Assembly: GCA_004123355.1 (NCBI GenBank)
Contig: SCHM01000002.1
Coordinates: forward strand, 9,831,569 to 9,895,568
Length of the DNA stretch: 64,000 bases
Origin: Amphirosellinia nigrospora
Taxonomy: Eukaryota > Ascomycota > Sordariomycetes > Xylariales > Xylariaceae
Direction: 5' to 3'
Positions 35,997 to 42,978 of this stretch are shown in pieces (positions within the stretch are counted from its first letter, which is position 1; each line of letters starts with the position of its first letter). The notes beneath the pieces were generated by a model. It was not told the DNA's origin. It saw nothing but the letters and a program-made list of their open reading frames with translations, and did not search any database. A program made the position numbers and the translations under genes.

Positions 35997-37559
35997 CGAT
36001 AAGCTATAGCTGGTCGCTTTTCCTTGTACGACATGGTGCTCTGGGGTTCAAAAAAGGATTTGGATATGAAAGCGTACATTAAACGGAAGTCGGTATTGGT
36101 TTCGTCCGGAATCTTTCACGCCACTCCCTACGTGGTACTTCGGCATGTTGAAGCCTTCTTGGCATCTTTCGATCATTTTCACCTTAAGTTTCGTCAACTG
36201 TAAAGCGGTATTGGGAAGCAAGCGATTGATTTATGGTTTTATAAATAATGGCATTGGGAACCGGCGGCAAGGATTTGCATGGGACCTCGTTTCGCTTGAG
36301 GAACTATTTTATATGTTAGTCTTGTCAAAAGAGCTCGACCACTTGGTGAGGCGCTTATGTATTCGAATATTCACGCACAATTTAGCCCAGTATCTTTCTG
36401 GGCATAATATTCCACTTGCTATTCGTGTTAAGTCGTGGCTTGATGCTGGTGAATAGAATTGTTGGGGTTGTGGCTGTGTAATAGGCTGATAACTACCAAG
36501 TAGCCAACCCATCTGTTGAGATATCATCGGTAGAAGTTATAATATTTAATCAAAGTTACCCACGTCCCTTATATACACCTCGGTATACTAGGAGGTCACA
36601 TGGCTTATGAATAAATGTTTGGTCTTAGTTCGATATTTATTTTCTACTACCCAAGCTACTCTACACCTTTCGGAATCTCACCGTCATAGCTAAGCACCCA
36701 ACAAAGACTAGCTGAGTCTGATGCACGTACAACAGTTGTTATTATAAGTTATATATGATTTATGGAATTAGTTAATAGTGAATTCTATCGGAACGCAAGG
36801 GACTGGCGCCGGGTTAGAGAGCTGTGCTGGGGCTGTGAGCTACCCTTGCTTTATTTACACATCACGATCTCCAAATATAAGTTCTCGAATCAAGTCGATT
36901 AAATTCGCCTCGCAAGTTCCTCTGGCCTGGGTACGCCAAGATGCAATGAAATCTTGGGTATCGATGTTCTCGTAGCGAAGTTGTGACCCTCTCCAATGTG
37001 GAGTTTAGCTGGGGTACCGTCTCGTCTCGGAATGGTTTCAACGCACACTGCGACCTCATTCATATGTGTGCAAGCCATACTCCAACGACGCTATTGAAAG
37101 ATGATATTTGGATATTGATGATCAAAAGCACAGTTGACGAAGAAAAGACTGAAAACCTGAATGATAGGGCTTCTTCGCCAATTATGACATCATCAGTGGT
37201 TGGCTACGAGTGTTCACCTCTCCTCAATTCAGAACCTGGGGTTTGAAACGATGATTGTATGGGATGCTCGAGAGGCAAAACACCCTCGTGACGCTCCAAA
37301 TTCTTAGACTCCTCCCTGCATGGGGTAAGCTTGCAAATAGCAATAAAGATCTATTTTTTCTTTAATACTCCTTACTTTTGAATATTTCTCAATTCCTAAT
37401 TCTCAATATCTATTTTCCCTCATCTCCAGCCCTTGACGGGCTCATTTTCGTTTCACCCATCAGCAGCTAGTCTGCCCACCGTTTCCAAGCCGTTTACTAT
37501 ACTTGTAATATTAATTATCTCACACAAATATATATATATATATATATTCGCCCGAGTGT
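35997..37559. other. Intergenic region
   Basis: AT-rich, no supported gene. A (TA)n run lies at about 37528-37548, just upstream of the next gene's start. Confidence 0.5.
37528..37548 (+). repeat. (TA)n microsatellite
   Basis: About ten TA dinucleotides, ending 12 bp before the proposed start codon of the secreted protein gene, so it probably lies in the 5' UTR. Confidence 0.8.
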
Positions 37560-38792
37560 ATGAATCGACGCACGATGTTGACTCTCCGCTCCGTTCTTCT
37601 CGTGTGCCTCTCCCTGCACCTTGTCGAGGCAGCGCCGCGAAATCGAAATGGGAACGGAAACGGGCGGAACGGGGCTTCGCAGGGACAGCAGCAGCGCTTG
37701 ACGGCGCAGGAACAAGCCGATCAGATTCCCCAAGGGCTTTCGGTGGCTACGGATGGCAGCACTATCTTAGATGCCACGGCACAAGTGAAGTGAGAACAGT
37801 CTTTGGACCCGAGCTCTAAGAGCAATTGGCAGTCAGATAAACATGAGTCGAGAGGGCTGACATCTAACCTGCACAGCGGCCAAGCACTCCGCTTCAAAGT
37901 CTCGGCGCCGGCAGACCAGTTCACGACCGACACGGGATCACGGGGGCCGGGCAAGCCGCAGGCGCGGCGGGGCCGCTGGGCGTCAACGTGCTACTCCACG
38001 GCGACGGGGGCCAGTCCTTCTTCGACTTCCCGAACCAGGCGGTGCAGAACAACTTCGCGGGCGTCGCCCTGCTCGCGCCGGACCCGAACCTGTTCTGGGG
38101 CGTGGCAGCGGGCTCGAGCGCACCGACGGCGCCGCGCACGCGCAGATCGTCAACGACTTCGTCCAGCAGATCCTGCCGCAGGTCATGGCGTTCGATAACA
38201 ACAGCGTCAGCTTCACGGGCGTGAGCGGCGGCTCGCTGCTCCTGTCCGGTTTTTTCATGCCGGCGTTCATGCAGAACTTCGCCTCGCCTGCCGCTGCGGC
38301 GGCGGCTACTACTGCGGCTCGTTCTATGGTTCGCGGTCGTCTCGCGCTGTCGAGTAGAGCCGCCAACGCCACGGCGGCAGGGCAAAAGACGAGCCAGGTC
38401 CTGCTCAACTGCGGCGCCCTGGCGCCCCAGGTCGCCGTGTCTGCCGACGCGGCGGCCGCGTTGGCGAACACGCGCGTCCACTTCCAGTCGACGCAGGACG
38501 ACCTCGCCGAGCTGCAAGTCTCCATCCCGAGGCGGTCGTGGCGTTTGAACAGGTCGTGTCGGACGCCGGGTTGACGGCGAAGCAGATCGCGGCGCTGCAG
38601 ACGGTGGACAACTCTCCCAACGGTGGACACTGCGAGTTCGACGAGAAGGACTTCGTCTCGGGCGTCCAGCTCATGGCCGACTCATTCTCGGCCGTCGTTC
38701 AGGGCGGTGATGGACTGCTGGCTGGCACGAATGTCAATGTGTTGAATCCAGTGCCGGGAAATGAGAAGCTTGTCTTCTCGGGCGCTTCTTAG
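37560..38792 (+). CDS. Secreted alpha/beta-hydrolase-like fungal protein (several frame breaks)
   Basis: A signal peptide is clear (MLTLRSVLLVCLSLHLVEAA, from the second in-frame ATG at 37575; the first ATG is 37560). An Asn/Gly/Gln-rich linker follows. An intron at 37790-37876 (GTGAGA donor, GCACAG acceptor) joins ATAQVN to GQALRFKVSAPADQFTTDT. Downstream blocks: GVNVLLHGDGGQSFFDFPNQ, GVALLAPDPNLFWG, AHAQIVNDFVQQILPQVMAF, the nucleophile-elbow-like FTGVSGGSLLLSGFFMPAFM (G-x-S-G-G-S), and DNSPNGGHCEFDEKDFV near the end. Together these indicate an esterase/lipase-like fold, with HG near the first strand as a possible oxyanion element. Related fungal proteins are widespread, and some are mislabelled 'cyclin-like F-box'. 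Frame breaks occur near 37930-37985, 38115, 38300-38390 and 38525. The enzymatic activity is unknown. Confidence 0.75.
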
Positions 38793-39167: not shown

Positions 39168-42115
39168 CTAGCTACTTAGAATACGCAAGAACCATGTAAC
39201 CTCCTTCTCGTTCTCTAGTTCTACTATCAGCTTCTCAATCTTCTCACACCGCGGAGCGTCGTGATCGCCGAGCGCTTGGTTCCAATTCATCTCTAACCAA
39301 TCGCTCATTTCCGCCTCAGACAACACGTCCCCATTCCCAGCGAGCAAAGAGACCACAGCCTTAATCACCCCAATGCCTCGCTTCTCTTGAGGTCAGACGA
39401 AAGTCCGAAATGAAAGCGTCTAACGAGTTCGCTCCCACTTGCCAGGTCCGCAAGGTCCTTTCGTCCCTTCTTGTGAAAGCACTCTGCCAGAAACTTGTCA
39501 TCCGCACTAAGCCCAGTGGACGAACCCTTGGGGCAATACAAGTTGTTTGGGTCGGCGGTGAGGATGGATGGACCGAAGGCCTCGCACGCCGGGACGAGAC
39601 GTGCAAATTGCCAGTCGATGATGGCTGTGATGGTGTAGTTTTCGTCAACGAGGATGTGATCGCCCTTGTCGTCGACGTGCTTGAGGAAGAACGCCTCATT
39701 CCCAATACACGAGGATGCGTTCGTAGCAGCTAGAGCAGGGCTAGCTCTGTCTCTTAAAAGCCGATAGAAGAGGAACGCTTCTTTCGGATATTCTGGATAG
39801 AGCTGCCCGTCGGCAACGAGATCTAAGTGAAGCTCTGCGATGGAAGTGAAATATTCGAGGGATTTGGGGAATGGCCCGTATCTTCCCAATGATATGAAAC
39901 GATTGCTGGCGATAGCACTCTCTCTTATTCCTCCTTTGTGGGGGATGAGTGAACAGGCCTGTGTACTAGTAAAATGACTCATCTTGATGAGAATATCGGC
40001 ATATTGGTCGTAAACGAGCGACTTCTGCTCAGCGGTTGCTTGGTAGGCGTAGAATGGTTTACCCGGCATGGCGTCTTCGAGTATGTAGCTCACTCCAACC
40101 AGATTATTCGAGTCAGAAGAAAGCCCGTATCCATGAGCTCTAGGAGCGGGAATGCCGATATCCTCCAAGGTCTTTAGAGTTGCGTACTCGCTCTCGACTA
40201 GATAGTCGACAACATCTAGCGGTGTGTCGCCGAAAGCCGTAGTCCGAGGAATCCGAGCAAGCCACTTGACTCCATCGTCAAAGACAATCCAGCCGTGGTA
40301 ATTAGCACAGCCCATGACGGCCTCATCTCCTATGTGCTTACCAGGAAGGAATTCGCATTGTTTGTCCTCGCGAAGGGAGCTAGCTACGCGAATGAGTTCG
40401 GGGACATTTACTTGGGCGAGAAGCGCCTCGACTTCCGTATTGATACCTTTCTCCCAGGCAGCATCATCAAGCTTAGCCCAGTTAGTCAGCATAACGGCGG
40501 CCCAGGCAATACTCTATTTAACTCTGGAATACTCACATCTCTTATCGATAGGCATTTATGATATCGAGGAAGAAGGTGTATAGCACATAGATGGTTCATG
40601 CAGGTTGAACAACTTCTGCCGCGGACGGATGGGCGATCACAGCCTAGCATAGAGCAACTTGCAAAGCGAGGAACTTTCGACTTCGGTACTGTATCACCAT
40701 TTAGGCGAAGTGGCATATTTTTCAACGACAATTGGGACAGATTGCATAGTTGAAGATCATCCGTCCACTCGCTTAGATTGGTTTCTAGCCATTGTTGCTG
40801 TTCAGGCACAGTACCTTCGAAGGTAGCCACCAGGGTTCGAAAGAGGTTGAAAGCCTCACTCTTTGTAGGACCAAGACCTATCCCTGGACCGAAGAGGAAC
40901 CGTCGCATTTCGTCGGATTGAAAGTAGCAATAGGGTGCGCCGCAACGGCGGAGTTCTTGGCCCAAGGCCTTGTCCTCTCCACTCAGCCCCGGGTTTCCAT
41001 TGAAAAGGTCTATGGTGTTTGCAGACACAAGCGAGGGCCCAAACGCCTCGTATGCTGGAACCGTCCTTGCAAAAGTCCAGTCGATTATACCGGTGATTTG
41101 TAAGTCATCGTCCACGAGAATGTGACCTCCTTCGTCGTCCATGTGCTTGAGAAAGAATGGTCCCGAGTGGAGGTTCTGCCATTTCTTAAACCAACGGCCT
41201 GCTTTAACCTGATCTTCTAAGAACTTGAACATAATATACGCGTCAATTGAAAAATCTGAAAAGAGCTGATCGTCGGCGACAAGTTCGAGATACGCTTTAG
41301 TCCAGGAGCTGAGGTATTCATTCGCATTTTCATATGGCCCTATGCAAGGCAGCGATCCAGTTCTGTCGCTCGCTATAGGTCCTATCTTCACAGCCTCATT
41401 CAGGCCAAACTGCAAGGAGCCTATCTTGTCGAAAGGATGTTTTCCCAATTTGCAGAGTACATCGGCCCACTGGCAGAATACTTTCGACTTCTGTCCCGGC
41501 GAAGCTGCCTCGGAATTAAATGGGTGACCAGGCATCCTGTCAATGATCATATATGCGACGCCTACTTCATTATGGGGATCACCACGTAGTCCAAAACCGT
41601 GAAGCCGTGGCGTAGGTAGGTCAAGAGACTCTAGCCATCGAAGAGTCGCACACTCGCTCATCAATATTCGGCTACTCAGCTCATCGTCAAAAGACGTGTG
41701 GTTCTTTCGAGGTATCCGAGCAAGCCAAGCAGTGCCGTCTTCGAACAGAAGTTGAAAGTGAATATACATGCCGCCCATGCGATGGCGTTCCAGAGGGTCT
41801 TGGTCATCTAGACGGCACTCCAGGCCGCCCGAAAGCTCTTTTGCACGCTGAAGAAGGGCCATACGATCGATCTTCTTGCTGAGAGTAGCCAACTCTTTCG
41901 TCTGGTTCGCTAACCTGGCGTCATCGTCAAGAGGCTTTTTCTGTAACAACTTGAGTACATATCCACGGGTTGGGTTGGTATCTTACTTCACATAGATGCA
42001 GCACAGAGTTCACATGTGTTGCGCAATACATAGATTCGCATCGCTCGCAACTACCGACATCGATTGCAGCAGCATTTGGGCACCTTGCGATGGCGCAGTC
42101 CCAAAATCGTGCCAT
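39168..42115 (-). CDS. Tandem-module protein: (AN1-like zinc finger + APH-type kinase) x 2
   Basis: The first in-frame ATG is at 42115. Exon 1 (41987-42115, 43 codons) is one zinc finger, C7-x4-C-x10-C-x2-C-x4-C-x2-H-x5-H-x-C42. An intron at 41941-41986 (GTAAGA, TTACAG) joins it in phase 0 to exon 2 (40537-41940, 468 codons). Exon 2 is an aminoglycoside-phosphotransferase-type kinase with TAWLARIPR, HMDDEGGH (residues 309-316) and TGIIDW (D330), then a second finger at residues 472-506, C-x4-C-x9-C-x2-C-x4-C-x2-H-x5-H-x-C. A stop follows at 40486 if translation reads through, but a GTGAGT at 40536, a CTGACTAAC branch point and a TAAG acceptor at 40472 define a 65-bp intron, also phase 0. It leads to exon 3, a second kinase with VKWLARIPR, HVDDKGDH (776-783) and TAIIDW (D797). 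Exon 3 is broken at the C4 run 39368-39371 and ends at 39168. Total about 945 residues. The finger spacing matches AN1 except for the first pair (x4, not x2). Substrate unknown. The alternative is two adjacent genes. Confidence 0.75.
40472..40536 (-). other. Predicted intron joining the two finger-kinase modules
   Basis: GTGAGT donor at 40536, CTGACTAAC branch point and TAAG acceptor at 40472; 65 bp, phase 0. It lies five codons after the last Cys of the second finger, and the first intron (41941-41986) lies one codon after the last Cys of the first finger. Its use decides whether this is one gene or two. Confidence 0.65.
41941..41986 (-). other. First intron of the finger-kinase gene
   Basis: 46-bp intron, GTAAGA donor at 41986, ACAG acceptor at 41941, phase 0. 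It joins the first zinc finger to the first kinase domain. Confidence 0.75.
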
Positions 42116-42761: not shown

Positions 42762-42978
42762 ATGTGCACTGCCAGCGGCAACAAGACTATGCCTTTTACC
42801 AATGAAGCCAAAGGACCTGAAGAAACTCTAGTTGACAACACCACTTATAGCATGCGTTGCTGCGTCGAAGGTTGCGGGACGTGGGCTTTGGCTGGATCGC
42901 GATTCTGCGCCGCCCGTATGTACATCTATCTTAGTAATCTGTCGATGTGCTAAAAAGCAGTATCTAGATAAGAAGTGA
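42762..42978 (+). CDS. Small Cys/His-containing protein, about 54 residues
   Basis: The ATG at 42762 has a good context (CAAAATG). Exon 1 (42762-42915) ends in a GTATGT donor. A 52-bp intron with a GCTAAA branch-like sequence ends TATCTAG at 42967. Exon 2 adds three codons and TGA (42976-42978). The predicted tail carries C-x4-C-x10-C-x2-H (RCCVEGCGTWALAGSRFCAA then H), one possible zinc site. The motif resembles half of the fingers in the adjacent divergent kinase gene. It may be a genuine micro-protein, or the 5' remnant of a larger finger protein whose rest has decayed. I cannot tell which. Confidence 0.4.

Follow-up and report, generated by a model that had tools for sequence, protein, structure and literature searches.

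Whether two zinc-finger/kinase units that lie in tandem in a fungal genome form one protein, and what such a protein might do, is the question raised by a 64,000-nucleotide stretch of Amphirosellinia nigrospora DNA (contig SCHM01000002.1, positions 9,831,569 to 9,895,568; hereafter the window). An earlier note, made from the letters alone, had proposed a duplicated module fused into a single polypeptide. The analysis reported here points to one gene on the minus strand, at 42115-39365, that encodes finger 1, kinase 1, finger 2 and kinase 2 in three exons. On balance, we lean towards a conserved double-headed hydroxyl kinase that would likely act on a small-molecule substrate and use its fingers for protein contacts.

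Exon 1 (41987-42115, 43 amino acids) supplies the start codon and the first AN1-like finger, whose eight ligands are spread over 42097-41990. One codon past the last cysteine of this finger lies a 46-bp intron in phase 0 with the ends GTAAGA and CAG (41941-41986), after which reading resumes at KKPLDDDA in a second exon of 468 amino acids with a stop-free frame (40537-41940). This exon carries kinase 1, of the APH fold (40756-41934), a linker and the second AN1-like finger (40552-40656, ligands C472 to C506), and five codons past the last cysteine of the latter a 65-bp intron, again in phase 0, runs from GTGAGT to AAG (40472-40536). If this second intron is retained, the frame meets a stop at 40488-40486; the intron holds CTGACTAAC at 40489, the single occurrence across the window with both strands counted, and leads into LDDAAW at the start of exon 3 (39365-40471, 368 amino acids and a stop), which encodes kinase 2. 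The spliced model from the assembly as it stands comprises 879 amino acids. The same-strand units, each a finger ending in C-x2-H-x5-H-x-C followed by an APH-type kinase, the codon offsets of the two phase 0 introns, the LDD(D)A motif after each of them and the 65-bp intron that takes out the stop between the units had all been described in the earlier note and were all recovered. Indeed, when a fused protein of Xylaria acuta (P0001) was used as tblastn query against the window, its residues 1-56 aligned at 42115-41951 with 75% identity, its residues 38-558 with the exon 2 stretch, extending into both introns, at 72.6%, and its residues 512-879 with exon 3 at 83.4%.

Relatives bear out the single polypeptide that the note had put forward. 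A search with the fused query yielded 84 matches, 34 of which, mostly with near-full query coverage, were aligned (alignment A1, to which the counts out of 34 refer). These fused relatives measure 810-1088 amino acids, 30 of them within 880-950, and their sources include Xylaria, Biscogniauxia, Durotheca, Nemania, Annulohypoxylon and Diplogelasinospora as well as Stylonectria, Fusarium, Sporothrix, Ophiostoma, Penicillium and Lachnellula. One gene model spans both halves in six fungal orders from three classes of Pezizomycotina, looked up for six species: Xylariales, Hypocreales, Ophiostomatales and Sordariales (Sordariomycetes), Eurotiales (Eurotiomycetes) and Helotiales (Leotiomycetes). With profiles specific for each module, module 1 followed by module 2 was found in 59 of the 181 proteins fetched; one module is very weak or partial in at least four of these, and one protein scored in reverse order. 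In the gene models P0018 (Fusarium albosuccineum), P0025 (Fusarium lateritium), P0033 (Sporothrix bragantina) and P0052 (Penicillium malachiteum) most or part of finger 2 is missing, probably spliced away by annotation.

The position of the introns can also be followed in sequences from metagenomes. Nine of the 11 metagenome proteins inspected (P0042, P0051, P0055, P0057-P0061 and P0065; finger 2 is imperfect in P0060) start in or before module 1, join kinase 1 to finger 2, cross the latter and turn into non-conserved sequence right after it, so that unrelated sequences agree on the position of intron 2; of the others, P0067 loses its frame within finger 2 and P0048 has both modules. The starts of P0042 and P0051 lie a few codons at most from the 3' end of intron 1. 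This intron is not universal, since finger 1 is continuous with kinase 1 in P0055, P0057 and P0058. A phase 0 intron is present at the matching place in single-module paralogs of the same genome, between SE and ILDDAA in L008 and between NPQ and DNFDEF in L005. Intron signals alone were dropped as evidence: a loose donor/branch/acceptor scan matched 9 times on one strand and 10 times on the other, where 20 shuffles averaged 14.35, thus no excess, and the stricter of the two scan patterns is unable to match the AAG acceptor of intron 2. The support for the introns therefore rests on relatives rather than on signals.

Two other accounts of the gene itself have to be weighed. The locus might harbour two distinct genes or transcripts, the fused model being an error of reading through a stop, and some fungi do have models with module 1 only, ending at the junction (P0190, a cluster of 67 sequences, P0191, P0192 and P0195), or with module 2 only (P0103, P0104 and P0105), while in Elsinoe batatas the halves bear distant gene numbers and the module 1 row sits on a long branch. 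The survey for one- and two-module versions suggested by the note thus returned both, with the fused form in many species and a fusion that is not universal; homologues are not always two separate genes, the pattern that the note had named as speaking against it, though single-module models occur, at least as annotated. Some of these models may be annotation splits; the beginning of P0063, by eye, is the tail of module 1. In the window, however, one stop-free exon holds both kinase 1 and finger 2, models of the fused gene extend over the full query in many species, the same join recurs in the metagenome proteins and the intron that removes the stop is located where single-module paralogs also carry one, all of which makes a wrong joining extremely improbable. 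The second account concerns the 3' end, where the frame of the last exon closes at a TGA (39367-39365) and a frame break lies between 39374 and 39368, ahead of the last C-terminal helices. The latter can be read in another frame only (39374-39204, minus strand), in which tblastn finds 41 of 57 residues (72%) identical to P0001 878-934, with an E-value of 9e-26 for the tail alone. The end at 39168 and the length of about 945 residues given by the note have to be corrected to the 879 amino acids of the present sequence, because the homologous tail sits in the other frame and the span of the note crosses the break. A genuine frameshift would make the gene a truncated pseudogene in this genome, and the place of the break, before the last helices, would agree with this; it is nevertheless very unlikely, as the tail keeps its identity to Xylaria acuta beyond the break and similar shifts without introns seem to occur elsewhere in the assembly, of the kind that homopolymer indels produce in long-read assemblies left unpolished. 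In particular, the coding of a plus-strand neighbour (37515-38790), probably a secreted protein, jumps by eye through frames 0, 2, 1 and 0 with no evident introns, which suggests several single-base assembly indels, and two single-module paralogs show apparent frame breaks, one in the kinase (L008, G000 C4:10918362-10921559, at nt 2139) and one in the finger (L010, G000 C8:995602-998904). Since these genes also seem to shift frame without introns, the break at 39368-39374 is probably an assembly indel, and the gene is probably intact in the organism, with its last 57 or so codons displaced.

Given one fused protein, its likely activity depends on the kinases, both of which have the APH fold. 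The profile search advised by the note, with Pfam APH (PF01636), gave 40.7 bits for kinase 1 and 30.7 bits for kinase 2, both above the cut-off of 23.2, and matches were obtained in 34 of 34 relatives at E<=1. On the minus strand, kinase 1 has R118 in WLARIPR (41727-41704), E139, H309, D311 and H316 (41157-41122) and D330 W331 (41091-41071), and kinase 2 has R584 in WLARIPR (40264-40241), E606, H776, D778 and H783 (39691-39656) and D797 W798 (39625-39605). The β3 Arg, the αC Glu, the His and Asp of HxD, the His at D+5 and the Asp-Trp are conserved in 32-34 of the 34 rows in both modules (D311, H316 and D330 in 33, 34 and 33; D778, H783 and D797 in 34, 34 and 33). Among 25 undamaged rows, mean pairwise identity amounts to 0.607 for kinase 1 and 0.619 for kinase 2 (300 pairs) and to 0.229 for the linker (210 pairs), which is, by this comparison, free to vary.

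The nearest known enzymes share more than the fold with these kinases. A sequence search of the PDB matched macrolide kinases weakly (E-values of 0.01-0.023), with W-x-x-R-[IL]-P-R and the loop His at D+5 in common, and Foldseek ranked an Mph structure first for the models of both P0001, built with A1 (mean predicted local distance difference test (pLDDT) 85.1, predicted template modelling score (pTM) 0.52), and P0055, which covers finger 1, kinase 1 and finger 2 (85.0 and 0.82). The Mph enzymes, or macrolide 2'-phosphotransferases (PDB 5igi, 5ih0 and 5uxd), agree with the fungal kinases in the APH fold, in the β3 motif W-x-x-R-[IL]-P-R, in an HxD followed by His at +5 and in I-D-W, and differ in being bacterial, about 300 amino acids long and without fingers. 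In the portion available of PMC5760710, Glu196, His201 and Asp214 are given as the catalytic residues of MphH, and an excerpt of PMC6109786 has it that Mph enzymes use GTP. Set beside the MphH residues, the fungal kinases have the catalytic acid/base (D311 and D778), the loop His at +5 (H316 and H783) and the Asp of the metal site (D330 and D797).

Both fingers of the window have eight ligands in AN1 order, C-x4-C ... C-x2-C-x4-C-x2-H-x5-H-x-C, and each ligand is conserved in 29-33 of the 34 rows. The zf-AN1 search (Pfam PF01428) that the note had also advised gave a mixed outcome: the whole protein of Xylaria acuta reaches 29.1 bits, above the cut-off of 27.9, while its isolated finger 2 (22.6 bits) and finger 2 of the window (16.3 bits) stay below it. 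A profile of 15 fingers (A2) matches AN1 structures (1wfe, 7.3e-5; 7y7l, 1.2e-4; 1x4v, 1.7e-4), and all 15 fingers match zf-AN1 at E<=10, the best at 1.3e-7. Judged from these comparisons, the fingers are AN1-like, as the note had held, and nearest to ZFAND1. With the AN1 fingers of ZFAND1 and Cuz1 (1wfe, 7y7l and 5ij4) they share the eight ligands, and the C-x4-C first pair is that of the second ZFAND1 finger (1wfe); the fungal protein differs from ZFAND1 and Cuz1 in having neither the LDFLP motif nor a ubiquitin-like domain, and in joining its fingers to kinases. Any link of the fingers to ubiquitin or membranes would be a conjecture. A short finger-like stretch, MRCCVEGCGTWALAGSRFCAA, lies on the plus strand at 42842-42925, opening divergently from the gene and ending in a GTATGT donor-like site, and is possibly a remnant of another finger exon.

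Tandem kinases often split labour between an active and an idle partner, and textbook kinases have a Lys in β3 and an Asn in the catalytic loop. One of the two kinases may accordingly be idle and regulatory, folding against or scaffolding the other as in pseudokinase pairs, and Arg and His do replace these residues in both modules. Active macrolide kinases, however, have Arg and His at the same places, because of which the pattern is that of a working enzyme class of the Mph type rather than of a dead kinase, and a pseudokinase reading drawn from the Lys-to-Arg and Asn-to-His changes was set aside; as the modules are, besides, equally conserved, their catalytic residues included, an idle partner seems rather unlikely. 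The fingers could instead steer a protein kinase to the ubiquitin/proteasome machinery. In the part of PMC5035049 that is accessible, the finger of Cuz1 is required for proteasome binding, and a weak match to the profile of Haspin, a protein kinase, occurs in seven of the 34 relatives (best E-value 0.005). Yet those of the listed structure matches that carry a name are mainly to aminoglycoside, macrolide, fructosamine, homoserine, hexosamine and steroid kinases, fold and sequence matches being the reason why the two kinases are placed with small-molecule kinases, and in the list of 11 Pfam families for the 34 relatives no ubiquitin-like domain appears; a protein kinase is therefore unlikely.

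The proposed double-headed hydroxyl kinase would then work as follows. Each kinase would bind a nucleotide, GTP being as likely as ATP, and phosphorylate a hydroxyl group. As modification or detoxification enzymes, the two would probably share one small molecule, each site modifying its own position, or handle two related molecules. The finger N-terminal to each kinase would be a protein-docking piece, perhaps for proteasome- or Cdc48-linked partners as in Cuz1/ZFAND1. The catalytic step is well grounded, and the substrate and partner parts are weak. Several points weigh against this proposal. VIA-align puts several APH and fructosamine-kinase folds level with or above Mph, and the resemblance to Mph consists of short motifs and the fold: NCBIfam Mph models match the same stretch at about 28 bits or less in the three relatives scanned (best 28.3 against 612), far below family cut-offs of at least 500. 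The pTM of 0.52 leaves the relative orientation of the two halves unsure, each half being well modelled. The LDFLP motif, which an excerpt of PMC5035049 defines for the Cuz1/AIRAP/ZFAND1 subfamily and which follows the first ligand pair, is absent from the fingers examined. Finally, the gene models of the relatives are predictions themselves, and some lineages manage with one module, so that a second head is dispensable at times.

The origin of the pair was addressed with trees of the separate modules. The first (71 rows) combined 20 of the 34 rows and the window, hence 21 module 1s and 21 module 2s, with 29 single or partial rows; for the second (69 rows), 20 of the 71 were dropped, P0069 was restored, and 13 module-1-only and four other rows were added. 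In the first tree the module 1s are united in a single clade (100/99); another clade (100/100) takes in every module 2 along with 14 rows annotated as single. The internal duplication assumed in the note is one candidate origin, and a fusion of two paralogs is another: the free trees set module 2 beside single-module genes, a placement that would suit the fusion, but the approximately unbiased (AU) test does not reject modules 1 and 2 as sisters (p = 0.265 and 0.432 in the first and second tree). If vertically inherited, the pairing would predate the divergence of the three sampled classes. Penicillium rows with module 1 only are nested within fused Penicillium rows (100/99, second tree), which reads as later loss or fission. 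Both modules of P0015 from Diplogelasinospora grovesii (Sordariales) group among Xylariales rows, for which horizontal transfer, a mixed-up sample and poor sampling are candidates.

Four loci of this genome (C4, C6, C7 and C8) encode a single finger and kinase. Single-module fungal proteins of this type (for example P0157 from Durotheca and P0177 from Trichoderma) have the same AN1 finger, the phase 0 intron after it where checked (L008 and L005) and, in several, an LDD-type start after the intron, and the C4 and C7 loci show the same catalytic-loop signature; they differ in having one finger and one kinase, and most form a separate clade adjoining module 2, the C7 one standing with Xylona and Letharia rows. 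The C8 paralog (L004/L010) reads KPVDD instead of KHxDD; since Pro replaces its HxD His, this kinase may have decayed or changed. An APH-like kinase (L003 31-813, G000 C4) that lies immediately upstream of the C4 paralog has Asn in its catalytic loop (HADLGPGN), unlike the finger-kinase family. A biosynthetic gene cluster was considered and rejected, no backbone synthase having been found among the 10 of 38 long open frames of the window that were scanned at E<=0.01; these matched annexin, amine oxidase, photolyase, thioesterase, EAF, ATP-synthase d and a sub-cut-off F-box-like domain, three frames were without a match, and the 28 other frames include two of this gene's own exons.

All in all, the architecture is real, conserved, built of known folds and apparently undescribed. 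In a literature search on this architecture and on fungal APH families, in which most subscription journals lay outside the coverage, no title or beginning of an abstract named the architecture, and no assigned function was found. The bacterial AAC(6')-Ie/APH(2'')-Ia, an acetyltransferase joined to a kinase without fingers, differs from the fungal protein, which has two homologous kinases. The likeness, going by PDB titles, lies in two catalytic domains within one drug-modifying polypeptide. APH-type kinases are numerous in filamentous fungi, as indicated by parts of two genome papers, one with APH domains enriched in two fungi (PMC4059230) and one with a multi-member APH orthogroup carrying PF01636 (PMC9864908); a truncated APH gene of one Penicillium strain appears in an excerpt of PMC3532085. 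None of these three excerpts deals with the present protein. For these the locus offers a handle, with a conserved architecture, two active sites open to testing, a signature in common with Mph and a type of finger with known binding elsewhere. It is conceivable, if speculative, that a fungus-wide class of double-headed, GTP-using small-molecule kinases, with two Mph-like heads each led by an AN1 docking finger, may couple the modification of toxic natural products to protein quality control. The identity of the substrate would tell whether fungi keep their own antibiotic-kinase-like system of modification or detoxification.
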